From: Nitrosospira briensis
GTDB taxonomy: Bacteria > Pseudomonadota > Gammaproteobacteria > Burkholderiales > Nitrosomonadaceae
NCBI RefSeq assembly: GCF_900115125.1
Contig: NZ_FOVJ01000001.1
Span: forward strand, 405,852 to 469,851
DNA length: 64,000 nucleotides
Direction: 5' to 3'
Positions within the stretch are counted from its first letter, which is position 1. Each line of letters opens with the position of its first letter. The notes below the pieces were generated by a model. It did not search any database, was not told where the DNA came from, and saw only the letters and a program-made list of their open reading frames with translations. Shown here in pieces: positions 45,682 through 59,044 of the stretch. The position numbers and the translations under genes are program-made.

Positions 45682-45984
45682 TACCTGAGCTGCGAACGGT
45701 AGTCTCGGAAACAAGAATCGGGCGAGAACTGCTCAGTCCGGCATAGGGGCGAGAAAAGGCGAATGGACTGCAAGGCGGGAAATCATTCTGCTCCGTTGCC
45801 ATCTGAGGTTCAGTGTAGGACAAAGTTATAAATCCTTATATCGTTCAGGGGGTTAAAGAGCATGAACATCATTATGTTTCGGTTTACATCATGCAAGATT
45901 GTGTGTAACGTGCTCAGAAAGGGATGTGATGGAGACCGATTTCAGGAAACCTGATTCAGCTAAATCATAAATACAACAACAAAA
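45682..45984. other. Spacer porin-ureD, 303 bp
   Basis: It should hold the urease promoter if ureD starts the operon. No NikR-like or other operator was recognised and ureD has no obvious Shine-Dalgarno sequence. Confidence 0.4.
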
Positions 45985-46926
45985 ATGTATCCGACTACTA
46001 ATGCGGAAAACCTTTTAACGGGAAAGGAGCCTGCTGCTCCGGTCCATCGTTTGTACCCCGCGAAATCTTTATCGAATCCGGTACCCGCTGTGCCGCATGC
46101 GCCCTTGCAAGCCCGCTTGACGCTGGGTTTTACGAAAGACGCCGGTGCTACCCGGCTGACCGAGAGAAACCACCTTGGCCCGTTGCTGGTGCAAAAACCT
46201 CTCTATCCGGAAGGCCGTGAAGTGTGCCAGGTCGTGATCGTGCACCCGCCTGGCGGAGTTGTCGGCGGGGATAAGCTGGAGGTCACCGCCAAGGTTGGCC
46301 CGGCAGCAAGCGCGCAAATCACTACCCCCGGCGCAGCCAAGTGGTACAAAGCCAACGGCCGTGTTTCGTACCAGAATATAAAACTTGACGTGGGCCCCGG
46401 AGGAACACTTGAGTGGGTGCCGCAGGAAACCATTTTTTTCGACAATGCACAAGTCATGCTGGACCACAGCGTTGCGCTGGAAAAGGATGCGAGCTATATC
46501 GGCTGCGAAATTCTGTGCTTTGGTCGCACCGCGTCCGGCGAGTCGTTCACGGGAGGGCAGATCAGGCAGCGCAGCAGCATCCGTCGCGATGGTAAATTAA
46601 TCTGGTTCGAGCAGTCCCGGTTGGAAGGCGGCAGCACAGCCATGAAAAGCCCTTTGGTACTCTCCGGCAGCACCGTGTGCGCAACCCTGATTGCAGTAGG
46701 CAAAGCAGTTCCTGCCGCGCTGCTACGTGAAATGAGTGAGGGCGCGGATGCCATAGGGGATAGCCCAGGCAATTTCGGCGTTACGCAATTTAAATCCATT
46801 ATCGTCATGCGCTACCTGGGGCATTCGAGCGAAATTGCTCGCCGCATAATGTTGCACGCCTGGGGCTTGCTTCGTCCAGTCATGTTGAACCGGCAGGCCA
46901 TGGTGCCCAGGTTGTGGAACACATAA
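45985..46926 (+). CDS. ureD: Urease accessory protein UreD (UreH)
   Basis: 313 residues. The N-terminal ~30 residues are variable; the core has LTLGFTKDAGATRLTERNHLGPLLVQKPLYPEG, VIVHPPGGVVGGDKLEV, ITTPGAAKWYK and VPQETIFFDNAQV, all standard UreD. It is the platform on which UreF and UreG assemble on apo-urease. The C-terminal part has RYLGHSSEIARRI. First gene of ureDABCEFG; the next start is 102 bp away. Confidence 0.96.
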   Translation: MYPTTNAENLLTGKEPAAPVHRLYPAKSLSNPVPAVPHAPLQARLTLGFTKDAGATRLTERNHLGPLLVQKPLYPEGREVCQVVIVHPPGGVVGGDKLEVTAKVGPAASAQITTPGAAKWYKANGRVSYQNIKLDVGPGGTLEWVPQETIFFDNAQVMLDHSVALEKDASYIGCEILCFGRTASGESFTGGQIRQRSSIRRDGKLIWFEQSRLEGGSTAMKSPLVLSGSTVCATLIAVGKAVPAALLREMSEGADAIGDSPGNFGVTQFKSIIVMRYLGHSSEIARRIMLHAWGLLRPVMLNRQAMVPRLWNT

Positions 46927-47028
46927 GGCCGCTGGTGAACAGGCTATTTTTTCGCCATTTTAAAAATGTGCTACGTATTAGCGCTGTGGAGAATAGAAGC
47001 AGCCGTTAATTTACCGAGGAGATGTCAA

Positions 47029-47331
47029 ATGGATCTTACGCCGAGAGAGAAAGACAAGTTACAAATATTTACCGCAGGGTTATTGGCGGAACGACGGAAA
47101 GCGCGCGGCTTGCGGCTCAATTATCCGGAGGCGGTCGCATTGATCACCTGCGCAATAATGGAAGGGGCGCGCGATGGCAATACAGTTGCTGAGCTTATGT
47201 CGGAGGGCAGAAAGATACTTACGCGCGCCGACGTGATGGAGGGCGTTCCCGAAATGATTCCTGATATCCAGGTCGAGGCGACGTTTCCGGATGGCACCAA
47301 GCTGGTGACTGTCCACAACCCCATTCCTTGA
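47029..47331 (+). CDS. ureA: Urease gamma subunit
   Basis: 100 residues from the ATG at 47029, which follows GAGGAG; an in-frame upstream start at 46966 lacks a ribosome site. [23 protein letters not shown] is the invariant start and [34 protein letters not shown] the invariant end. It is a structural subunit of the (UreABC)3 enzyme; 18 bp from ureB. Confidence 0.98.
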
Positions 47332-47349
47332 AAACCCCGGAGATTAGCC

Positions 47350-47673
47350 ATGGCAAGAATACCATTAGTTCCAGGTGAAATATTTGTGCAGCCTGGCGAG
47401 ATTGAACTGAACGTCGGCAGAAAAACCAAGACGCTGAAAGTTTCGAACGGTGGCGACAGACCAATACAGATTGGTTCGCACTTTCACTTTTATGAAGTCA
47501 ATTCGGCAATGAATTTCGACCGTGAGGCGGCTTACGGCATGCGCCTGAATATCATGGCGGGCACAGCGGTACGTTTTGAACCTGGTCAGGAACGCACTAT
47601 TGAACTGGTTGAACTCGCCGGAGACCGGACGGTGTATGGGTTCAACCAGAAAGTGATGGGCAAGCTGAAATAA
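47350..47673 (+). CDS. ureB: Urease beta subunit
   Basis: 107 residues, normal for a separate beta subunit. IPGEIF-type start ([16 protein letters not shown]), [41 protein letters not shown] and the [12 protein letters not shown] end. It pairs with UreA and UreC; 33 bp before ureC. Confidence 0.98.
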
Positions 47674-47706
47674 CAGTGCCGCGAATAATCTACAGAGGAG
47701 CAGAAA

Positions 47707-49413
47707 ATGACTTTTAAAATTTCCCGCCAGGCCTATGCGGAAATGGTCGGCCCTACTACCGGCGACCGCATCCGTCTGGCCGATACGGAACTTCTTATTG
47801 AAATCGAGAAAGATTTCACTACATATGGCGAAGAAGTCAAATTTGGCGGCGGCAAGGTGATCCGCGACGGGATGGGTCAATCACAGCGCAGTCATGCTGA
47901 TGTAATGGATACCGTAATTACCAACGCGGTCATTGTAGACCACTGGGGCATAGTCAAGGCGGATATTGGTCTAAAGGATGGCAAGATCGCGGCAATAGGC
48001 AAAGCGGGAAACCCGGATATCCAGCCTGACATCACGATGGCCATCGGCGCGGCAACCGAAATTATTGCCGGCGAAGGTTCAATTATCACGGCGGGCGGGC
48101 TCGACGTCCATATCCACTTCATCAGTCCGCAGCAGGAGGAGGACGCAATGATGAATGGGATTACCACCATGCTGGGAGGCGGGACGGGCCCGGCGGCCGG
48201 CACCTCGGCAACAACCTGTACCCCGGGCCCATGGCACATCAAGTCAATGCTGAAAGCATCGGACGGGATGGTGATGAATACAGGGTTTTTCGGCAAGGGT
48301 AATGCCAGCATGCCGGCCCCGCTGGAAGAACAGATTGTGGCCGGTGCTTGCGGGCTGAAACTGCACGAAGACTGGGGCACTACCTACGCGGCTATCGATA
48401 ATTGCCTGGATGTCGCGGATAAAAATGATATTCAGGTAGCCATCCACACCGATACCATCAATGAAGGGGGATATGTAGAAAACACGATCGCTGCGATAAA
48501 GGATCGGACGATTCATACTTTCCATACGGAGGGGGCAGGTGGCGGCCATGCACCCGACATCATGAAGGTTGTGGGTCAGGAAAATGTCTTGCCTTCATCC
48601 ACCAACCCGACGCGGCCCTACACCGTCAACACGCTGGACGAACATCTGGACATGCTGATGGTGTGCCATCATCTCGATGCCAGCATTGCGGAAGATCTTG
48701 CTTTCGCGGAATCGCGCATCCGAAAGGAGACCATCGCGGCCGAAGATATTCTGCATGACATGGGCGCCATTTCGATGATGTCGTCGGATTCGCAGGCAAT
48801 GGGCCGTATTGGCGAGGTCGTGTTGCGCACCTGGCAGACTGCCCACAAAATGAAAATACAGCGCGGTTCCCTGCAGGAAGACAGTTCGAGGAACGATAAC
48901 TTCCGGGTGAAGCGCTATATAGCCAAGTACACCATCAATCCTGCGATCACGCACGGGGTTTCCCACGCCGTTGGGTCCGTAGAGGTCGGCAAATACGCTG
49001 ATCTCGTCTTGTGGAGGCCCGCATTCTTCGGCGTCAAGCCATCCATGATCCTGAAAGGCGGAATGATCGCCGCCGCGCTGATGGGCGATCCGAATGCGTC
49101 TATCCCGACCCCGCAGCCTGTGCATTACCGGTACATGTTCGGCGGATACGGCGGAGCAATCAAAATATCCTGTTTCACTTTTACCTCGCAGGCAGCGCTG
49201 AATGCAGGACTGGTTGATAATCTGAAGCTGGACAAGAACCTGATTGCGGTCAAGAACACGCGCAATTTGCGCAAGAAGGACATGATTCATAATGGTGCGA
49301 CTCCTAAAATGGAAATTGATCCCGAAACCTATGAAGTGCGCGCCGACGGACAACTGTTGACGTGCGGAGCAGAAGATGTTTTACCGATGGCGCAGCGATA
49401 CTTTTTGTTTTGA
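47707..49413 (+). CDS. ureC: Urease alpha subunit (catalytic)
   Basis: 568 residues. Nickel-site residues are all visible: HIHF (two His), the carbamylated Lys in GLKLHEDWG, His in [11 protein letters not shown] and in [12 protein letters not shown], and the Asp near [11 protein letters not shown]. The flap has the catalytic Cys/His in MVCHHLD. The N-terminal [20 protein letters not shown] is standard. It hydrolyses urea to ammonia and carbamate. AGAGGAG precedes the start. Confidence 0.99.
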
Positions 49414-49421
49414 GGCCATAA

Positions 49422-49958
49422 ATGCTTACCTTGAATACCAAGATAGAACACGCGGAATCCATTTTCGCGCAGCTTGTCCTGCCTTATGAATTGCGTGAAA
49501 ACAGCCGCTTGCGCACTACGCTTGCCTCGGGAGAGGAGGTTGCAATTTTTACTGAGCGGGGTACGGTGCTGCGCAACAACGATTTGCTCAAGGGCAATGA
49601 CGGCCGGGTGATTCAAATCGTCGCGGCGAAAGAACTCACGTACCGGATTACCTGCGCTACCTCGCGAGATTTGTTGCGCTGCGCGTTTCATGTCGGTAAT
49701 CGTCATACGCAGACCCAGGTGGAAGAAGGTTTTCTGCGCATCTACCAGGACACCGTATTGAAGGAAATGCTCGAGGGCCTGGGCGCGACGGTGGTCGAAG
49801 AAAATGCGCAATTCGAGCCGGAAGCCGGCGCCTACAGCAGGGGGAGCGGCCATCATCATCATGGGAGCGACGGTCACGCTCATTCTCATGATCATGGGCC
49901 ATTGGCTCCCATTCCGGCCCATCAAAAGATTCACCGGCCCTCGGATCAGCAACGGTAG
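49422..49958 (+). CDS. ureE: Urease nickel metallochaperone UreE
   Basis: 178 residues. An N-terminal peptide-binding domain and a C-terminal metal domain with CAFHVGNRHTQTQVEEGFLRI and EGLGATVVEENAQFEPEAGAY. The tail is His-rich (SGHHHHGSDGHAHSHDHG), a nickel store like that of Klebsiella UreE. It delivers Ni to the UreD/F/G-apo-urease complex. Nine bp from ureC. Confidence 0.96.
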   Translation: MLTLNTKIEHAESIFAQLVLPYELRENSRLRTTLASGEEVAIFTERGTVLRNNDLLKGNDGRVIQIVAAKELTYRITCATSRDLLRCAFHVGNRHTQTQVEEGFLRIYQDTVLKEMLEGLGATVVEENAQFEPEAGAYSRGSGHHHHGSDGHAHSHDHGPLAPIPAHQKIHRPSDQQR

Positions 49959-49975
49959 AACATGAGGTGACAGCC

Positions 49976-50653
49976 ATGCACGCCACTTCCTTGCTACGCC
50001 TGCTGCAATTGGCGAGCCCGTCGCTTCCCATTGGCGCATATACCTATTCGCAGGGTCTGGAGTCGGCTATCGAGACAGGCATTGTCAACGATGAAAGCTC
50101 GGCCCGAGCCTGGATTATCGAATCGCTGGGTATAGTCGCCGATTTTGAAGCGCCGGTACTTTGGCGTCTGTTGAAGGCTTTTTCGGCGCGAGACTTGGCA
50201 GCCGTCACGTATTGGACGGAACGTTTCGTTGCAGCGCGCGATACCGCCGAATTCCGTGCGGAGACCATTCAAATGGGATATTCGCTCGGCAAGCTGGTGG
50301 CTGACCTGAAGATTGCGGACGATACGCTGCTGGAGATACTCGCGGACCAGCATGAAATACCGTTGCCGACAGCGTTTGCCTGTGCTGCGACGGCATTGGC
50401 TGTGCCCCATCACGAAGCTCTGCTTGGCTCGCTGTTTTCCACTATCGAAAATCAGACGCTGGCTTGCGTGAAATCGGTGCCCCTTGGGCAGGTATCTGGC
50501 CAGCGGCTTCTTTTTTCCCTGCATCCCGAAATTGAAGCGGCATCGCAACGCGCGCAGCTGCTGGCAGATGATGAGCTATCAAGCTGGGCACCGGGGTTAT
50601 CGTTATTATCAATGCAACATGAAGTTCAATACAGCAGGATCTACCGATCCTGA
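49976..50653 (+). CDS. ureF: Urease accessory protein UreF
   Basis: 225 residues from the ATG at 49976, with GAGGTGA just upstream; a GTG at 49967 sits in that site. LLRLLQLASPSLPIGAYTYSQGLE is the classical start, with WIIESLGIV, RDTAEFRAETIQMGYSLGKLV and CVKSVPLGQVSGQRLLFSL. An all-alpha protein that acts as the GTPase-activating partner of UreG in the maturation complex. Confidence 0.97.
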   Translation: MHATSLLRLLQLASPSLPIGAYTYSQGLESAIETGIVNDESSARAWIIESLGIVADFEAPVLWRLLKAFSARDLAAVTYWTERFVAARDTAEFRAETIQMGYSLGKLVADLKIADDTLLEILADQHEIPLPTAFACAATALAVPHHEALLGSLFSTIENQTLACVKSVPLGQVSGQRLLFSLHPEIEAASQRAQLLADDELSSWAPGLSLLSMQHEVQYSRIYRS

Positions 50654-50674
50654 ATTTATTCATACGGGATATCC

Positions 50675-51328
50675 ATGAAAAAATTATCAAATCCTCTACG
50701 CGTCGGAATAGGCGGGCCAGTAGGCTCGGGAAAGACCGCTTTGTGTGAAGCGCTCAGCAAGAAAATGCGCGATCGATACGATATGGCGGTTATTACGAAC
50801 GATATCTATACCAAAGAAGATATGGAAATTCTGTTGCGTGCCGATGCGCTCCCGGCTGAGCGCCTGATGGGCGTGGAAACCGGCGGTTGCCCTCACACAG
50901 CGATCCGGGAGGACGCGTCGATCAACCTGGAGGCAATTGCGCGCATGACAGCGGACTTCCCTGATCTGGATCTCATCCTGATCGAATCCGGCGGGGATAA
51001 CCTTGCATCGACTTTCAGCCCGGAACTTTCCGACCTCACCATCTATGTCATCGACGTAGCTGCCGGGGAGAAAATACCGCGGAAGGGCGGTCCTGGCATT
51101 ACACGCTCGGCGTTGCTTGTCATCAACAAGATCGACCTTGCGCCTCATGTGGGAGCGAATCTGGATGTAATGGCACGCGACGCAAAAAGAATGCGTGGTG
51201 AAAGACCATTCGTGTTTACCAATTTGCACACCGGCGAGGGCGTTGACCGCATCGTCGATTTCATTGCGAAACAAGGTCTACTGGACGAAATCAAGGCGCA
51301 AGCCGTCGACGCACGTTCCCAGGTTTAA
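50675..51328 (+). CDS. ureG: Urease accessory GTPase UreG
   Basis: 217 residues. P-loop [15 protein letters not shown], switch/metal motif [15 protein letters not shown] (CPH binds Ni), [19 protein letters not shown] and the specificity motif [11 protein letters not shown]. Its GTP hydrolysis drives nickel insertion. Last accessory gene; the urea transporter follows at 114 bp. Confidence 0.98.
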
Positions 51329-51442
51329 TCAGGATAGGAGAAAACTGGCTCCCGGCTACTTGCAGCAGGAAAATTCAAGAGGCCCGCTTGTGCTGCCCGG
51401 CATAAGAAAGATCGTATATAAAAAACCCAGGAGCTGAGTATC

Positions 51443-52402
51443 ATGAATTGGTCATTAACGATCGATAAAGCGCTTCCTCGGCCTCTACGCATAATTCTGC
51501 GAGGTGTCGGACAGGTATTTTTTTGCTGTAACGCGGTGACCGGATTGATTTTCCTCGTAGCGCTTTTCATCGGGAGCGTGACTGCGGGGGCTGCCGCAAC
51601 GGTGGGAGTGATAAGCAGTACCGTTGCAGCTTACCTTCTGGGGTTTTCGGAAGATGATATCGATGCGGGGTTGTACGGCTTTAATGGCACCTTGGTAGGC
51701 CCCTGCCTGTTTCTGTTCCTGGAGCATTCTCCTCAACTCTGGCTTTATGTCGTGCTTGCTTCGATATTGTCGAGCATTGTGCTGGCCGCCCTGATGCGAA
51801 TTCTTCACCCTTATAATGTTCCTGCTTCGACATCTCCGTTTGTCCTGACCTGCTGGATGTTTCTGGTTGCAGTGTATGCGTTCGACAGCTTTACGCGGGG
51901 TCCGATTTTGCCGCCGCCCGGTATTCCCACGGTGGTGACGGGTGTTGGAGCGATTCCAGCCGAGGTATGGTTCACGGCGCTGACCAAAGGCATTGGCGAG
52001 GTAATGTTTGCCGATAGCGTCGTGGTCGGCATTCTGTTTTTAACCGGTATCGCGATTGTTTCATGGCGGGGTGCGCTGATGGCGCTCTCCGGCGCGTTTG
52101 TTGGCGTTATCGTACCCATGCTTTTCGGGGCAAACCAGAACTTGATCGAAATGGGACTTTATGCATTCAATCCAGTTTTGACAATGATGGCGTTGGGCTG
52201 GGTCTTTCTCAAACCTTCCGGCAAAAGCGCTGTATTGGCTATCTTGGCTGGCATTTTAACCGTGGTGTGTCAGGCTGGTCTGGCAAGTTTTCTCACACCT
52301 ATAGGCTTGCCAACCCTTACATTCCCGTTTGTTCTGGTAATGTGGATGTTCCTGTTCGCGGCGGGGAAATCAAAATATTGGTCAGGTCCTGCCGCCAAAT
52401 GA
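51443..52402 (+). CDS. Urea transporter (UT family)
   Basis: 319 residues, ten hydrophobic segments in two homologous halves. The half signatures are LYGFNGTLVGPCLFLFL (first) and LYAFNPVLTMMALGWVFLKPSG (second), as in bacterial Yut/UT-B channels. LRGVGQVFFCCNAVTGLIFL near the start is also typical. It lets urea cross the inner membrane down its gradient. AGGAG lies 10 nt before the ATG. Position right after ureG supports function with urease. Confidence 0.94.
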   Translation: MNWSLTIDKALPRPLRIILRGVGQVFFCCNAVTGLIFLVALFIGSVTAGAAATVGVISSTVAAYLLGFSEDDIDAGLYGFNGTLVGPCLFLFLEHSPQLWLYVVLASILSSIVLAALMRILHPYNVPASTSPFVLTCWMFLVAVYAFDSFTRGPILPPPGIPTVVTGVGAIPAEVWFTALTKGIGEVMFADSVVVGILFLTGIAIVSWRGALMALSGAFVGVIVPMLFGANQNLIEMGLYAFNPVLTMMALGWVFLKPSGKSAVLAILAGILTVVCQAGLASFLTPIGLPTLTFPFVLVMWMFLFAAGKSKYWSGPAAK

Positions 52403-52509: not shown

Positions 52510-53258
52510 TCAGGCCACCAGTGTAACCTCTCCCGTTTTCAGGCTGTAAACGCCACCCACCACGAGAATTTTCCTCTCTTCGACTAGCTTGCTCAAAATC
52601 GGCGGTTGTTTTCGCAGCTTGTCTACATTGCGAATGACGTTCATTCTAACCACATTCTCGAAACGTTCGCCCGGCAGTGTTTTCGCAGCCCTGACCGCCG
52701 GGGCCAGTGCACTTGCCATTGATTGAATGTGACCCGGAAATTGCCTGTTTTTATCCACTGCATCGATAGCGGCCCCGACCGCTCCACAACTTTCATGGCC
52801 GAGCGCCATGATCAATGGCGTATGCAACACCGCAGCGGCATACTCAAGGGTGGCCACACAGTCGGTGGTTAAATAATTGACGGCCACGCGAGCTACAAAT
52901 AGATCGCCACGCTGCTCGTCGAAGCAGAATTCGGGACTTACCCTTGAATCGGACAACTTAGGATGCTCGCATAAGGATTCTAACCGGTAACCAGGGCGCC
53001 CCGCTCGTCGCTAAAATCCAGAAGTGTCGACTGACCGGCCACGTAGCGCGCATTGCCTGCCATCAACCGTTCCAAGGCGGCATCAGCCGTCACTACATTT
53101 TCCGGCAGGGGCGGCGCTTTTGCTTCGATGGCGGATGCCGCTCTTCCTGTTGTTGCGGCAAACCCGAGACCGAGAGCGGAAGCGGCAGCCAGTTTCAGGA
53201 AAAGGCGCTTGCCCGGGTTTTCTTCGGAATCCCTGTTTTTCTTGTTTGTGCCGCACAT
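52510..53258 (-). pseudogene. Beta-class carbonic anhydrase, broken by stop and frameshift
   Basis: The 5' part (53258-52980) encodes a signal-like N-terminus (KRLFLKLAAASALGLGFAATTG) and the start of a beta carbonic anhydrase, RLMAGNARYVAGQ...ERGALVTG, ending at a TAG (52980-52982) where relatives have Gln of GQNP. Reading through gives NPYASILSC; then one base is missing near 52957, after which the other frame continues as SDSRVSPEFCFDEQRGDLFVARVA and ALGHESCGAVGAA to LKTGEVTLVA. All the Zn and dyad residues (C..D.R and H..C) are present across the two frames, so the inactivation is recent. It lies between the urea transporter and nikR. Confidence 0.85.
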
Positions 53259-53288: not shown

Positions 53289-53750
53289 TCAGGTAAGCGG
53301 ATTGCTATGAGAATGCGGAAAAGAGGTGGTTGAATGTTGCTCTTGCCTGATCTCTACCGGTACCATGTGCAAGCTGCCATGGCGGACACCGCGAGTCGCC
53401 ATGACGAGATTGGCAAAGTCTTTAACACTCTTGATCGTGCCGCGCAGGATAACTACCTCAAGGCAGTTGTCATGATCCATATGCACATGCATACTGGATA
53501 AAGTAAGCTCGTGATGGTCATGCTGCACCGAAGTAACGCGAGTTGCCAGGTCGCTTTCATGATGATTGTAAATATAGCTGAGCGTCGCGACGCAATGGCC
53601 GGACTCCTCTTTTTCCAAACGGGAGGCTTCCAGTTGCTCTCGTATCAAGTCGCGCATTGCTTCGGAACGATTGGTATAGCCACGTGCGTGTATAAACGCA
53701 TCGAACTGATCGGAAAGCTGATTATCAAGTGAAATGGTAAGGCGTTCCAA
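53289..53750 (-). CDS. nikR: Nickel-responsive regulator NikR
   Basis: 153 residues from a TTG at 53750, which has AGAGGGAAA just upstream and gives the normal NikR start LERLTISLDNQLSDQFDAFI. A longer frame to 53804 adds an atypical leader. The ribbon-helix-helix (about 1-45) is followed by an ACT-like nickel domain. His77, His88, His90 and Cys96 (in SVQHDHH and SSMHVHMDHDNCLEV) match the four high-affinity Ni ligands of E. coli NikR (His76, His87, His89, Cys95). The His-rich C-terminus (HSTTSFPHSHSN) is extra. It lies downstream of the TonB receptor on the same strand; candidate operators are at 56121 and 56198. Confidence 0.93.
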   Translation of the reverse strand: MERLTISLDNQLSDQFDAFIHARGYTNRSEAMRDLIREQLEASRLEKEESGHCVATLSYIYNHHESDLATRVTSVQHDHHELTLSSMHVHMDHDNCLEVVILRGTIKSVKDFANLVMATRGVRHGSLHMVPVEIRQEQHSTTSFPHSHSNPLT

Positions 53751-53912: not shown

Positions 53913-56057
53913 TCAAAAATTCCCTGTGAGGCTGACGCGGAACGAACGAGATTCGATAGGATGGAAGTGTCTGTCCGGCACGCCGGAGGCCGGTTCTCCC
54001 GGTAGTCTCGACGTATAGAAATAGTCGATTGCATGGGCCTTTGTACCTAGCAGGTTGAAGCCCTGCAGTGCTACGCGAAACTTCTTGCTTAGCTTGAAGC
54101 CAATCTGACCATTAAGGGTCATCGTGTTATCCGACTGCTGGCTATTATCTTCCACCAGCGCCCGTTTTCCGAAATAGCGGAATTGCATGCTGCCGAAGAA
54201 AGGGCCGAGATTATCCACTGCGATACTTGCTTTTCCCACACCCTGAATTGCGCCGGGGATGTGATTACCTGCCGGGTCCCAGCCGGTGAAGCGCGCTTTG
54301 GCCAGCGCGTAATCCAGGTCTACGGTCAGCCAGTGATTCGGCATATAAAAAGCTGATACTTCGAACCCTTCGCGTTTGCTCGGCCGGCTTGCTTCGGTAG
54401 TGCCCGCATCCCCGACGAATAACAGTTCAGAGGCAAGATCCAGCCGGAAAAATGTAAGCGATGCCTGCAGCCCGGGAAGGATCGCTGTTCGCAGCCCTGC
54501 TTCATATCCGGTAGAGCGGACGAGAGGATTGACTCTGCTTATCGCTTCGCCGGACTTAGGGTCTACGGTGGCCGTGGCGCCGCGAGCGTCATTGCTGTGA
54601 AAGCCGCTGCCGTAGTTGAAGTAGTATTCCGTCTTGGCCCACGGCCCGAAGATCAGGCTCAGCTTGGGATTGGTTATGCTGTCATATTGTTCGCCGGAGT
54701 TGAGGCTATTGTCACTGTGGACATCGAACCAGTAAAAATCGCTGCGCACTCCAGCCACGCTCCGGAATTTGTCCATCCACTGGACGCTATTCTGATAATA
54801 AAGCCCCATGCTGTTTTCGAGCACATGGTCTTTGCGAGTGGTGAATAGGCTCTGCCGTTGCCTGGTATGCAACAGGCCATTATCGATCACGTCATTCTGG
54901 AATTGCGCACCCACCGTATTTTCAAACGCGAAACCGCCAAGGTTATTCACCCAGGCGTGGCTTAGATTCAATGCCGATTGGAACCGCTTGTCGACCTGTG
55001 AAAATTGATCGCCGTTGACAGGGTCGTCCAGAAAGTATGTGAAGTTTGAAAACAGGGCAAGGTTGCTATGGATGGTATAGAGATTGATTCTGGTAATCCC
55101 GAGCTTACTCTTGTGCTGCAATGCGCTAGACAGGCTGAAACGATGTGATTCACCCCCATCGCTGGGGTCGATGCTGCCAAGAGGTGAAATCGAACCGGCT
55201 TGGACAGCGCGTTGGGGAATCTGGTCCGTGGCGTTCCAGTTGGCTCCGTAACCCATCGCGGTGATATTGAAGCGGGTGTCTCCGTAACTCTGGCTATACC
55301 GTAACACCGCGTTGAATTTCCTGTAATTTTCCTTCCTGAGCCACGGTCCATCCTTTGTATTTAACTCAAAGGCATAGAGGATAGTGCCTCCGCCTGCCCC
55401 GTGAGAGTTTGCGGCCAGTCCCCGCATGAATCCCTGGTTGCCTACACTGAAATTCGCGATCCCCGCGGGCAATTTATTGACGTAGCCAATATCGACCGCG
55501 CCGGCTGATGAGAAGTCACCTTGATCCGCATAATAAGGGCCCTTCCGATATTGGAGAGAGGAAGCGAGCTCGGGTATCAGAAAATTGAGGTCGGAATAAC
55601 CCTGCCCATGTCCGTGGCTGCGCTGGTTAACAAGCATGCCCTCCACGGATATTCTGAGGTCCGTGCCGTGATCAAGATTGAAGCCGCGCGCGAAATACTG
55701 ATTGGCCTTGCCCTCTCCGCTGTGCTGCGTGACGATCAAGCCCGGTACACTTTCGAGCAATTCTCCCGGGCGGTAAACCGTGCGCTGGTCTATCTGTTGT
55801 TTGAGAACAGTCCCCTGATTCGCCGATTCGGCGGCTCCGATCAAATTATGATTATTGCCCTTGGCTTTTACCACCACCTCCTGAAGCGTCGGTACTCCTG
55901 CTGCATTAAGCGATGGTCCGATTCCCGTCAATACCAATGCGATACTGATGACGAGTGACGGGCGCGGCATTCGTGATGCTCGGGCGGCTGAAGCAGCAAA
56001 ACCCCCGCGTTTTAATGCGGGCCTGTGGTCCGGTAGCAATGCGGCGAGTCGTTCCAT
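53913..56057 (-). CDS. TonB-dependent outer-membrane receptor (candidate nickel/metallophore)
   Basis: 714 residues from 56057; a start at 55970 (MPRPSLVISIALVL) would give a shorter leader. After the signal the plug domain (about 60-190) shows VPTLQEVVVKAKG (TonB-box-like), RPGELLESVPGLIVTQHSG, YFARGFNLDHGTDLRISVEGM and SLQYRKGPYYADQGDFSSAG. A 22-strand barrel follows, ending HFHPIESRSFRVSLTGNF with terminal Phe. Substrate cannot be read from sequence. Adjacent nikR and the NikR-like operators upstream point to nickel. It is divergent from the ABC importer. Confidence 0.9.
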   Translation of the reverse strand: MERLAALLPDHRPALKRGGFAASAARASRMPRPSLVISIALVLTGIGPSLNAAGVPTLQEVVVKAKGNNHNLIGAAESANQGTVLKQQIDQRTVYRPGELLESVPGLIVTQHSGEGKANQYFARGFNLDHGTDLRISVEGMLVNQRSHGHGQGYSDLNFLIPELASSLQYRKGPYYADQGDFSSAGAVDIGYVNKLPAGIANFSVGNQGFMRGLAANSHGAGGGTILYAFELNTKDGPWLRKENYRKFNAVLRYSQSYGDTRFNITAMGYGANWNATDQIPQRAVQAGSISPLGSIDPSDGGESHRFSLSSALQHKSKLGITRINLYTIHSNLALFSNFTYFLDDPVNGDQFSQVDKRFQSALNLSHAWVNNLGGFAFENTVGAQFQNDVIDNGLLHTRQRQSLFTTRKDHVLENSMGLYYQNSVQWMDKFRSVAGVRSDFYWFDVHSDNSLNSGEQYDSITNPKLSLIFGPWAKTEYYFNYGSGFHSNDARGATATVDPKSGEAISRVNPLVRSTGYEAGLRTAILPGLQASLTFFRLDLASELLFVGDAGTTEASRPSKREGFEVSAFYMPNHWLTVDLDYALAKARFTGWDPAGNHIPGAIQGVGKASIAVDNLGPFFGSMQFRYFGKRALVEDNSQQSDNTMTLNGQIGFKLSKKFRVALQGFNLLGTKAHAIDYFYTSRLPGEPASGVPDRHFHPIESRSFRVSLTGNF

Positions 56058-56120
56058 CCTTTGGCCCTGGTTATAAAATATCCTTAGGGAACCAAGGCCA
56101 CGCTACTCAATTTCTGTATA

Positions 56121-56147
56121 GTATGAGATATTTCCAATTCGTCATAC
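56121..56147. promoter_or_regulatory. NikR-like operator 1, GTATGA-N15-TCATAC
   Basis: Inverted repeat GTATGA (56121-56126) and TCATAC (56142-56147), extending to 7 bp as AGTATGA/TCATACT, with a 15-nt spacer. The E. coli NikR operator is GTATGA-N16-TCATAC. It lies 63 bp upstream of the TonB-receptor start and overlaps a TATAGT that could be a -10 element of the divergent promoter. Confidence 0.7.
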
Positions 56148-56195
56148 TCATTGCCGAAACAAGCAGGATGGGAATAGCTTGATACTCTCAAGGTG

Positions 56196-56226
56196 ATGTA
56201 TGAAGATAAGTAAATTCTTCATACAT
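56196..56226. promoter_or_regulatory. NikR-like operator 2, GTATGA-N15-TCATAC
   Basis: GTATGA (56198-56203) and TCATAC (56219-56224) with the same 15-nt spacer as site 1. Here the arms pair perfectly over 11 bp (ATGTATGAAGA and TCTTCATACAT). Site-to-site distance is 77 bp. It is 120 bp upstream of the ABC substrate-binding protein start. Confidence 0.72.
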
Positions 56227-56346
56227 TTTATAATATCTTTGCTGCCTCAAGGTGAACTGATGCAAAGCTATCGTCAACTAATCGCGAGGTAAAGGGTTCC
56301 CAGCTTGCAAGTCGAACCTCATATGGACCCCCACCTATAGAAAACC

Positions 56347-57318
56347 ATGAAAGCTGTCCGGCCTCCCATCCTGTTCTTATTGCTTCTGCTGGCTTTGCCA
56401 TTGCCCGGCGTTGCCCATTCCGCAGACTCCCCTAGAAAGATAATCATTGTCACCACGGTCGCCCCTATTACCAATATTGTCCAGAATGTCGGCGCAGGGC
56501 TGGCTAAGGTGATCGGAATCGTTCCGGACGGGACCGATTCCCACACCTTTGAGCCCGTCCCTGCGGATGCGAAGATACTGGGAGCCGCGGACATGATTAT
56601 CGTAAATGGCCTTGATCTTGAACTGCCTACGGTGAAGCTGGCGGAAAAGGTCAAAAAAGCCACAACAGTTATTTTGCGGCTTGGCGATCGCACACTGCGC
56701 AAGGAAGACTGGCGCTATGATTTCAGCTTTCCACGGGAGCAGGGGCATCCCAATCCGCACTTATGGCCCAATATTGCATTGGCCATCCGATACGCGGAAA
56801 TCGTTCGGGACGACCTCGTTGCTTTCGATCCCACGCGGCGCAAAGGCTATATCGCAAATGCGGAAACTTATATAGCCAAGCTAAGAAAGTTGGATGACGC
56901 CATCTTTGATTGCGTCAAAACCATCCCACCGACGAACCGCAAACTGGTCACCTACCACGACTCCTTCGCCTATTTCGCTCCGCGCTATGGCATGAAGGTC
57001 ATCGCAGCTATTCAGCCATCTGATTTTTCCGAGCCTGGTCCGCAAGAGGTAATCCGCGTCATCAAGCAGATAAAGCGGGAAAAGGTGCCTGCCGTTTTTG
57101 GTTCGGAAGTTTTTCCCAGCAAGGTCATGGAACAAATCGCGCGTGAAACCAGCGTCAAATTCATAGATCAGCTTTCGGATGACGAATTGCCCGCTCCGCC
57201 CAACAACTCTTTTATCGGCATGATGGCGAACAATGTTGCGCTGATGACCGAGGCGCTCGGTGGGAAGCCGCGTTGCATGGCAGGCATCGACACAAGCAAT
57301 GCCGTACCTGGAATTTGA
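56347..57318 (+). CDS. Metal ABC transporter substrate-binding protein (ZnuA/TroA family)
   Basis: 323 residues. A signal peptide (about 1-25, ending VAHSAD) is followed by the cluster A-I binding-protein fold: two lobes joined by a long helix. Metal-ligand segments: DGTDSHTFEPVPADA (first His), QGHPNPHLWPNIA (second His), TYHDSFAYFAPRYG and VFGSEVFPSK (His/Glu) and the DDELPAPPNNSF region (Asp). The His-rich loop characteristic of ZnuA is missing, so zinc is not assured; Mn, Fe or Ni are alternatives. First gene of a three-gene importer operon; the ATPase start is 16 bp downstream. Confidence 0.9.
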   Translation: MKAVRPPILFLLLLLALPLPGVAHSADSPRKIIIVTTVAPITNIVQNVGAGLAKVIGIVPDGTDSHTFEPVPADAKILGAADMIIVNGLDLELPTVKLAEKVKKATTVILRLGDRTLRKEDWRYDFSFPREQGHPNPHLWPNIALAIRYAEIVRDDLVAFDPTRRKGYIANAETYIAKLRKLDDAIFDCVKTIPPTNRKLVTYHDSFAYFAPRYGMKVIAAIQPSDFSEPGPQEVIRVIKQIKREKVPAVFGSEVFPSKVMEQIARETSVKFIDQLSDDELPAPPNNSFIGMMANNVALMTEALGGKPRCMAGIDTSNAVPGI

Positions 57319-57334
57319 AGGCAGGACGGAGAGG

Positions 57335-58123
57335 ATGAATTCCGCAATTAGCCTGAACGACGTTACCGCTGGTTATGAACACAACATCGTGTTCACCCGA
57401 TTATCGCTGGAAATTCCGGTCGGGCGGTTTGCAGGGATTGTCGGCCCCACCGGTTGCGGAAAGACCACGCTGCTCAAAACCATTTTGGGCATGCAGCCCA
57501 TTTTTTCGGGCGATGTACTTCTGCATGGACATCCACTGGATAAGGTGCGGCGGAAGTCGATTGGTTATGTGCCCCAGCTGGGCAGTATAGACTGGGCTTT
57601 TCCCGTCACGGTGGAGGAGGTGATCATGATGGGCTTGTACACCGGCAAGCGCGTCTTGCCGTGGCCCAGCAAGGGAGAACGCGAGCGCGTTCAAGATCTG
57701 GCTCACAGGCTCGGCATTTATGAGATCCTCCGTCATCATATCGTCAATACCTCCGGTGGACAGCGCCAGCGCGCTTTTCTCGCGCGAGCGCTAATCAACA
57801 GTCCGGAACTTCTGGTGCTGGACGAGCCGACATCGGGCGTCGATATCAAGACGCAGCATGAGGTATTGCATCTGCTGGGCGATATCAACGATGAGGGCGT
57901 TACCATTTTGCTGACGACTCACGATCTCAACGCAGTCGCATCGCACCTGCCCTGGGTTATCTGCTTCAACAACGGCGTCGTCGCACAAGGCGAGCCTTGC
58001 GATATTTTTACCAACGAGATCCTGACCAGAACATACGGTGGGGACATCGTCATAGTCAGACACGAAGGCCATTTTCTGATCGCCAACAGCAGGCCTTTAC
58101 ACGTCATGGTCGACCAGCCGTAA
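57335..58123 (+). CDS. Metal ABC transporter ATPase (ZnuC-like)
   Basis: 262 residues from the ATG at 57335 (GGAGAGG upstream); frames extending back to 57260 overlap the preceding gene. Walker A GPTGCGKTTLLKT, signature NTSGGQRQRAFLARALINSP, Walker B LLVLDEPTSGVD and switch His in LLTTHDLNAV. The Q loop is VPQLGSIDWAFPVTVEEVIMMG, typical of Zn/Mn importers. The stop directly abuts the GTG of the permease. Confidence 0.94.
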   Translation: MNSAISLNDVTAGYEHNIVFTRLSLEIPVGRFAGIVGPTGCGKTTLLKTILGMQPIFSGDVLLHGHPLDKVRRKSIGYVPQLGSIDWAFPVTVEEVIMMGLYTGKRVLPWPSKGERERVQDLAHRLGIYEILRHHIVNTSGGQRQRAFLARALINSPELLVLDEPTSGVDIKTQHEVLHLLGDINDEGVTILLTTHDLNAVASHLPWVICFNNGVVAQGEPCDIFTNEILTRTYGGDIVIVRHEGHFLIANSRPLHVMVDQP

Positions 58124-59044
58124 GTGGAATTTCTCCTCGAACCGCTGGCATATGAGTTCTTCCGGCACGGTCTGCTTGCCGCGCTGCTGGTGGGTTCGCT
58201 ATGCGGCGTGATCGGCGTGTACATAATACTCCGCAGCATGAGCTATGTCGGCCACGGCTTATCACATGCCGCGTTTGGCGGCGCTGTGGTTGGCTTTACG
58301 CTTAACCTCAATTTTTATGCCGGTGCGGGCGCGATGGGCCTGCTTGCCGCACTATTGATCAATCGGATTACCAGGAACGGCAGGATCAAACCGGATGCGG
58401 CGATAGGTATTGTTACGACTGCCATGTTCGCGTTGGGCGTAGCCATTATCAGTCAGGTGCGCACCTTTAGCCAAAGCTTTGAAGCGGCTCTGTTCGGCAA
58501 TATTCTCGGTATTACCGGCGAGGACTTGCTGGTGATCGGGCTCGTCACTATTTCGACCATGATCATGATCTTCTTCATGTATAGACCTTTGCTTTTTTCC
58601 ACCTTTGACAATGAGGCGGCGCAGGTATTCGGCATCAGGACGGAAGCGGTACAGTTGATATTTTCCTGCCTCCTGACACTTTCAATCATCGCCTCGATGA
58701 ATGTGGTGGGCGTCACCATGATTGCCGCCACACTTATTACCCCCGCGGCAACGGCCCGAATTCTGACCGATAGTTTCAGCAGGATGTTGATCTATTCTCT
58801 TATCATAGGCGGAATAACCGGAATCACAGGTATTTACCTGAGTTATATTTTCAACGCCGCTTCGGGCGCAACAATTGTGTTATTTGGCGCTTCATTATTC
58901 TGCCTGGCGTTATTTGCCAGCCTTGTACGCAAGAAGCTCACCATGCATACCCATCTCCATCGTCACGGGAATCTCGTTCACTCTCACTTGCATGACCACG
59001 TGCATGAGCACAAGCATGATGCCCAACACCATGAGCCACGCTAG
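58124..59044 (+). CDS. Metal ABC transporter permease (ZnuB-like) with His-rich tail
   Basis: 306 residues from a GTG that begins the base after the ATPase stop. Eight or nine membrane helices with SYVGHGLSHAAFGGAVVGF, IGIVTTAMFALGVA and MIAATLITPAATARILT, characteristic of the ABC-3 family (ZnuB, TroC, MntB). The last ~35 residues (from MHTHLHRHGN through HDHVHEHKHDAQHH) are very His-rich and cytosolic, an extension not usual in ZnuB and suited to bind Zn or Ni. Confidence 0.93.
   Translation: MEFLLEPLAYEFFRHGLLAALLVGSLCGVIGVYIILRSMSYVGHGLSHAAFGGAVVGFTLNLNFYAGAGAMGLLAALLINRITRNGRIKPDAAIGIVTTAMFALGVAIISQVRTFSQSFEAALFGNILGITGEDLLVIGLVTISTMIMIFFMYRPLLFSTFDNEAAQVFGIRTEAVQLIFSCLLTLSIIASMNVVGVTMIAATLITPAATARILTDSFSRMLIYSLIIGGITGITGIYLSYIFNAASGATIVLFGASLFCLALFASLVRKKLTMHTHLHRHGNLVHSHLHDHVHEHKHDAQHHEPR

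Follow-up and report, generated by a model that had tools for sequence, protein, structure and literature searches.

NikR represses nickel uptake genes (PMC2667541, PMC7055735), and its operator in Escherichia coli is given as GTATGA-N16-TCATAC (PMC7055735). The enterobacterial NikR signal has been published as GTATGAT-[N13/14]-ATCATAC, a site of 27-28 bp that leaves 15 or 16 bases between the GTATGA and TCATAC half-sites (PMC545781). In Helicobacter, the NikR-repressed TonB receptors FrpB4 and NikH feed urease, and the inner-membrane nickel step is carried out by NixA or by a FecDE/CeuE-type ABC system (PMC3856676). A survey of 2009 reported some organisms that have nickel-dependent proteins and lack known nickel transporters (PMC2667541). 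A description of NikR-controlled nickel import in Nitrosospira or Nitrosomonas was not found in the literature searched, and we do not claim that such a description is absent from print.

Here, we analyzed a window, i.e., a whole stretch of 64,000 nucleotides (64 kb) of Nitrosospira briensis DNA. The divergent spacer between the ORF starts of a leftward TonB-dependent receptor gene and a rightward ABC importer operon (56058-56346, 289 bp) holds the only two GTATGA-N15-TCATAC palindromes without mismatch that the motif scan found in the window: operator 1 at 56121-56147, on the receptor side, and operator 2 at 56198-56224, on the importer side, neither assigned to a strand. Both have the form that we used to define a NikR operator, namely, a GTATGA/TCATAC inverted repeat with 15 or 16 bases between the half-sites. 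The two exact repeats of the preliminary description were thus confirmed; its "77 bp apart" holds as the start-to-start distance and not as the gap, which is 50 bp, and its extent of 56121-56226 begins correctly, with the second repeat ending at 56224. The likeness to the E. coli operator also stands insofar as the half-sites are identical, but the one-base difference in spacing is nothing special, because signals of 27-28 bp are already published (PMC545781); the idea of N15 as a new spacing was rejected, N15/16 being in print there.

The remaining matches in the window all carry three mismatches and are at chance level (20 in total versus 16.8 expected). Across the genome (3,233,677 bases), GTATGA-N13..18-TCATAC has three exact matches, every one with N15; the third, at C10:1117795, lies within an ORF of 1124 aa, and no exact match besides the spacer pair falls outside a long ORF. 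Base composition predicts 0.14 exact N15 sites per genome and 2.6e-5 for the 289-bp spacer. Four further N15 sites have one mismatch, of which three overlap long open frames; the fourth (L006) does not, and its neighbors are uninformative. Another 72 sites have up to two mismatches, and at this level there are 76 forward matches versus 50 with a reversed control motif. A chance origin of the spacer palindromes was rejected on the basis of the window scan, the genome scan and the 2.6e-5 expectation.

Aligned across six close relatives, the spacer has a mean pairwise column identity of 0.86 in operator 1, 0.76 in operator 2 and 0.40 elsewhere. The operators are thus its conserved islands, and the best 27-bp window begins at 56121, level with those beginning at 56119 and 56120. 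Both half-sites of operator 1 and the right half-site of operator 2 are invariant in these relatives, as are five of the six columns of the left half-site of operator 2; the flank 56111-56120 is partly conserved. Immediately outward of each operator lies an A/T-rich block: TATAAT at 56229-56234 on the plus strand, four bases beyond operator 2, and TATACA at 56120-56115 on the minus strand, abutting operator 1 within the partly conserved flank. We regard these blocks as candidate -10 elements of the importer and receptor promoters, respectively; because the promoter scan gave no full match to the sigma-70 consensus, both promoters are put forward as predictions. Each operator would overlie the region just upstream of its own candidate -10.

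The two operators could also work as one unit, in which NikR tetramers bend or loop the DNA and cooperate, each promoter needing both sites. This arrangement would fit the paired operators that several members of the genus and three genomes from a different genus possess, but most other-genus loci listed have a single site, and the distances between paired operators vary from 37 to 82 bases, with no common helical phase. A phased DNA loop between the operators was rejected on account of these varying distances; the absence of a common phase therefore favors two independent switches, and we consider the single unit distinctly unlikely. For the close relative L076, the search gave no receptor; its two operators occupy the interval from nikR to the binding-protein gene.

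The regulator gene nikR (53289-53750, minus strand), which is co-oriented with the receptor gene upstream of it, encodes NikR_C and RHH_1 domains and is the sole NikR_C gene that a profile search found in this genome. The protein, with its ribbon-helix-helix and NikR_C domains, exceeds the curated cut-offs of NF002815 (195 versus 83 bits) and NF003381, which assigns it to the NikR regulators, and falls under that of TIGR02793 (160 versus 175). Its alignment with E. coli NikR begins at the first residues. Residues H77, H88, H90 and C96 align with H76, H87, H89 and C95, which we take to be the E. coli nickel ligands, and their columns are conserved in 106, 105, 106 and 106 of 106 aligned NikR rows, respectively. 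Thus, the three-His-one-Cys nickel site is present in the alignment, and the earlier claim of a nikR gene with all four ligands beside the cluster was borne out. The strand that we assume to read the DNA has R-L-T-I-S here versus R-V-T-I-T in E. coli. Within the named collection, the closest NikR (88% identical) belongs to Nitrosovibrio sp. Nv6. The position of nikR behind the receptor gene, in the same orientation, makes it probable that operator 1 also controls nikR. Seven genus members (L073, L075, L080, L082, L084, L087, L088) have a second nikR away from the receptor; the one inspected adjoins a response regulator gene. Behind nikR, a carbonic anhydrase gene is split over two frames of the minus strand (52980-53258 and 52510-52956), which suggests a frameshift or a sequence error within 52510-53258.

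We then compared the locus across the family Nitrosomonadaceae, using a set of 125 genomes with 73 NikR_C matches in 64 of them; the 72 matches outside our genome, from 63 genomes, were fetched with their surroundings. These stretches contain the binding protein in 51, a TonB receptor in 53 (at an identity of at least 60% in 47) and urease alpha in 46 of the 63 genomes, counts that are depressed by short contigs. A different TonB receptor, 40-43% identical to that of the window, is found near nikR and the importer in L074, L078, L095 and L124. The importer was fetched separately in 20 genomes in which it is unlinked to nikR or nikR is absent. Sites were counted in the 400 bases upstream of the importer, once per genome and with our own genome included; G107, whose importer is at a contig edge, was left out, which leaves 62 rather than 63 testable genomes with nikR. 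Of the 62, 31 have an exact N15 palindrome; allowing one mismatch raises the number to 43, and allowing two raises it to 48. Dinucleotide shuffles gave N15 matches within one mismatch in 0/189 cases and within two in 4/189. Spacings besides N15 and N16 never come within one mismatch upstream of the importer in these genomes, and in none of the nine genomes that have the importer and lack nikR does either N15 or N16 give a match with two or fewer mismatches. The site therefore tracks nikR (48/62 with nikR versus 0/9 without it), and the conservation upstream of orthologous genes, for which the preliminary description had proposed such a scan, is observed, with 14 exceptions.

These exceptions, i.e., genomes with nikR whose importer has no upstream N15 site of up to two mismatches, are G112, G115, G009, G060, G075, G013, G057, G101, G020, G027, G089, G031, G019 and G073. 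One of them (L089/G112) is the only genome with nikR that has an exact N16 site, where its genus relatives have N15, and represents a natural spacing variant. In G115, G009, G060 and G075, the region upstream of the receptor contains an N15 site with at most two mismatches, and in G013, G009, G075, G060 and G057 such a site precedes urease. The other seven gave no N15 site (up to two mismatches) in the importer, receptor and urease stretches scanned, not all three of which were scannable in each genome.

The receptor itself (53913-56057, minus strand; PF00593 and PF07715) has its ORF start at 56057, but the onset of a signal-peptide-like stretch makes 55970 a possible true start. In a sample of 29 nikR loci from outside the family (L194-L224 minus L202 and L204), seven have an exact N15 site and 22 do not, and an N16 site within one mismatch occurs in none of the 29. 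Six of the seven exact sites start 97-114 bases before an HGxDADH motif, presumably typical of nickel permeases, near nikR; conversely, three of the nine loci that have the motif lack a preceding exact N15 site. The two HGxDADH genes that were scanned with profiles (L199 and L212) encode NicO permeases, and the next gene in both loci is a TonB receptor 46-47% identical to that of the window. On plasmids, 52 of 72,556 records match the receptor, and four were opened. A Paraburkholderia acidisoli plasmid has the order nikR-HoxN-receptor, a Bradyrhizobium 62B plasmid has HoxN-receptor-hydrogenase genes, and in Cupriavidus necator pHG1 the receptor relative lies ~4.4 kb from a gene of the HoxN family and ~7.4 kb from one for a NiFe hydrogenase; in Methylorubrum extorquens CM4, the relative is instead near another receptor, an ABC system and cobalamin genes. 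Thus, receptor relatives are found beside HoxN, nikR or hydrogenase genes in three of the four plasmids opened, and the linkage of this receptor family to nickel permeases or NikR is apparent, with the Methylorubrum relative as the exception. The operator scan of the four plasmid loci yielded a one-mismatch N16 site just before the Bradyrhizobium 62B HoxN gene, unremarkable two-mismatch N14 matches in two other loci and nothing in the fourth. A search of plasmid DNA with the spacer as the query gave one weak match only, in the binding-protein gene.

Because the spacer palindromes are rare and conserved, track nikR and, as exact N15 sites elsewhere, precede a nickel-permease motif near nikR, they are very likely NikR operators. 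A zinc-type importer would by name fit Zur, and the palindromes might in principle belong to Zur, to Fur or to an unknown regulator, or have arisen by chance. We consider this extremely improbable, given that the half-sites are those of E. coli NikR, that the expected number of sites in the spacer is 2.6e-5, that all nine genomes that keep the importer without nikR lack the site, and that the site precedes nickel permeases near nikR.

The rightward operon encodes a ZnuA/AztC-like periplasmic metal-binding protein (56347-57318; PF01297, supported by model and fold matches), an ABC transporter ATPase (57260-58123; PF00005) and an ABC-3 family permease with a His-rich C-terminal tail (58124-59044; PF00950), all on the plus strand. 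Many relatives share such a tail, which the majority of the other listed Nitrosomonas-type permeases lack. Three metal positions of the binding protein (H66, H138 and H204) are occupied by His in 75/75 aligned rows, and the third position aligns with a His of AztC and with a Glu of YfeA and manganese proteins. Structural matches of its predicted fold (mean pLDDT 83.8) are iron, manganese and zinc members of the cluster, 22-30% identical; the predicted fold and the alignment together give a cluster A-I protein with zinc-type His ligands. The closest named families of the importer are AztABC and manganese importers. Based on the three His ligands, the fold matches and these closest families, the importer family is zinc-like. 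It should be noted that the zinc equivalog cut-offs are not reached (AztC 170/350, AztA 161/220, AztB 190/280 and ZnuA 76/268 bits), and the three proteins are under the cut-off of every NCBIfam family among the matches listed.

An importer that mainly carries zinc, or zinc and nickel, and is shut by NikR because nickel also enters would leave the operators as they are. Consistent with such a cargo are the three His ligands, the third of which is shared with AztC and not with YfeA or manganese proteins, the AztABC and manganese importers as closest named families, the fact that the genome yielded no PF01297 protein other than the binding protein, and the retention of the importer without nikR in nine and without urease in four of 125 genomes. 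However, the importer accompanies nikR and urease in most genomes: by raw counts that ignore phylogeny, 62 of the 125 family genomes have both importer and nikR, 2 nikR only, 9 the importer only and 52 neither, and the corresponding numbers for urease are 67 with both, 8 with urease only, 4 with the importer only and 46 with neither. The scores under the zinc cut-offs and the nickel permeases beside relatives of the partner receptor also argue against zinc, as does a ZIP protein (one match in the genome), which offers an alternative zinc route, together with the lack of any match in this genome to NicO and HupE/UreJ, the two nickel permease families searched. A chiefly zinc or mixed zinc/nickel cargo is therefore unlikely in our judgment, and nickel is, from regulation and context, the better guess. 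The earlier term "zinc-type" holds for the family and the metal-binding residues and not for the cargo, for which the context argues for nickel.

Urease requires nickel, and the neighboring urease is the likely user of it: urease genes and a urea transporter occupy 45985-52402 on the plus strand, with UreE, the urea transporter and urease alpha identified. In 6/51 other family genomes scanned (G094, G013, G009, G075, G060 and G057; loci L075, L096, L130, L137, L139 and L237), an N15 site with 0-2 mismatches precedes the urease operon, 1929-1978 bases upstream of ureC, and in these six genomes NikR may control urease. A two-mismatch match at another position before urease in a seventh genome was taken as chance. 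In our genome, a NikR site before urease was rejected, the best match (45815-45841) having three mismatches, at chance level. Antisense within the urease alpha gene, Rfam RF02514 (5' ureB antisense RNA) matches at 47861-48140 on the minus strand with 88.7 bits versus a gathering score of 40; the match may merely mirror conserved coding sequence.

From these patterns we infer NikR binding, repression, the promoter positions and nickel as the cargo, and suggest the following model. Operator 1 would serve the leftward TonB receptor gene, probably with nikR behind it, and operator 2 the rightward operon of binding protein, ATPase and permease. When cytoplasmic nickel is high, nickel-loaded NikR would sit on each palindrome, just upstream of the -10 element, and block both transcripts; when nickel is scarce, both promoters would be open, and nickel would enter through the receptor and the ABC importer and supply urease. 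We consider this reading, i.e., NikR operators, two back-to-back promoters and nickel-dependent repression of a receptor and an importer that supply urease, to be highly probable as a whole. The proposal of the preliminary description that both divergent transcripts are NikR-controlled is the reading best supported by the genomic comparisons, since the site tracks nikR, is more conserved than any other part of the spacer and precedes the nickel-permease motif in six outside loci. The balance is even for a broader proposal, namely, that the ZnuA/AztC-like cluster A-I importer clade of ammonia-oxidizing Nitrosomonadaceae is dedicated to nickel and not to zinc and, with a NikR-repressed TonB nickel receptor, feeds urease, NikR control extending to the urease operon in a few relatives.

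The value of the locus is a predicted, widely conserved NikR-controlled nickel route to urease in ammonia oxidizers, through an importer of a zinc-type family; the receptor and importer would be a candidate nickel route in a soil ammonia oxidizer without a NicO or HupE/UreJ match. If this is true, a nickel importer belongs to a protein cluster whose solved members bear zinc, manganese and iron names, and nickel supply and urea use come under one regulator in a few relatives. The family is in addition a natural experiment on such sites: the spacing is N15 in most cases and N16 in a single genus member, the operators number one or two, and some sites lie before urease. As sites, the operators are of an ordinary kind. 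What is less expected is to find a cluster A-I importer as a presumed NikR target and, in some relatives, N15 sites before the urease operon.

The importer shares family, fold and the His ligands of its binding protein with AztABC and ZnuABC, but it is below their equivalog cut-offs and linked to urease and nikR; those systems have Zur sites, whereas the operators here are of the NikR type, a comparison that rests on a scan for NikR-type sites. The Helicobacter FrpB4/NikH system is similar in regulation and role, with a TonB receptor gene under NikR (predicted here) that feeds urease; its inner-membrane step is NixA or a FecDE/CeuE-type system, whereas here it would be a cluster A-I importer. 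At the betaproteobacterial nikR-NiCoT-TonB loci L199 and L212, nikR likewise has an exact N15 site nearby and the receptor, 46-47% identical, belongs to the same family, with a NicO permease in place of the ABC importer. The E. coli nikABCDE operator has the same GTATGA/TCATAC half-sites and likewise adjoins nickel uptake genes and nikR; the spacing is quoted as N16 there and is N15 here, where two operators share one divergent spacer and the importer belongs to another family.
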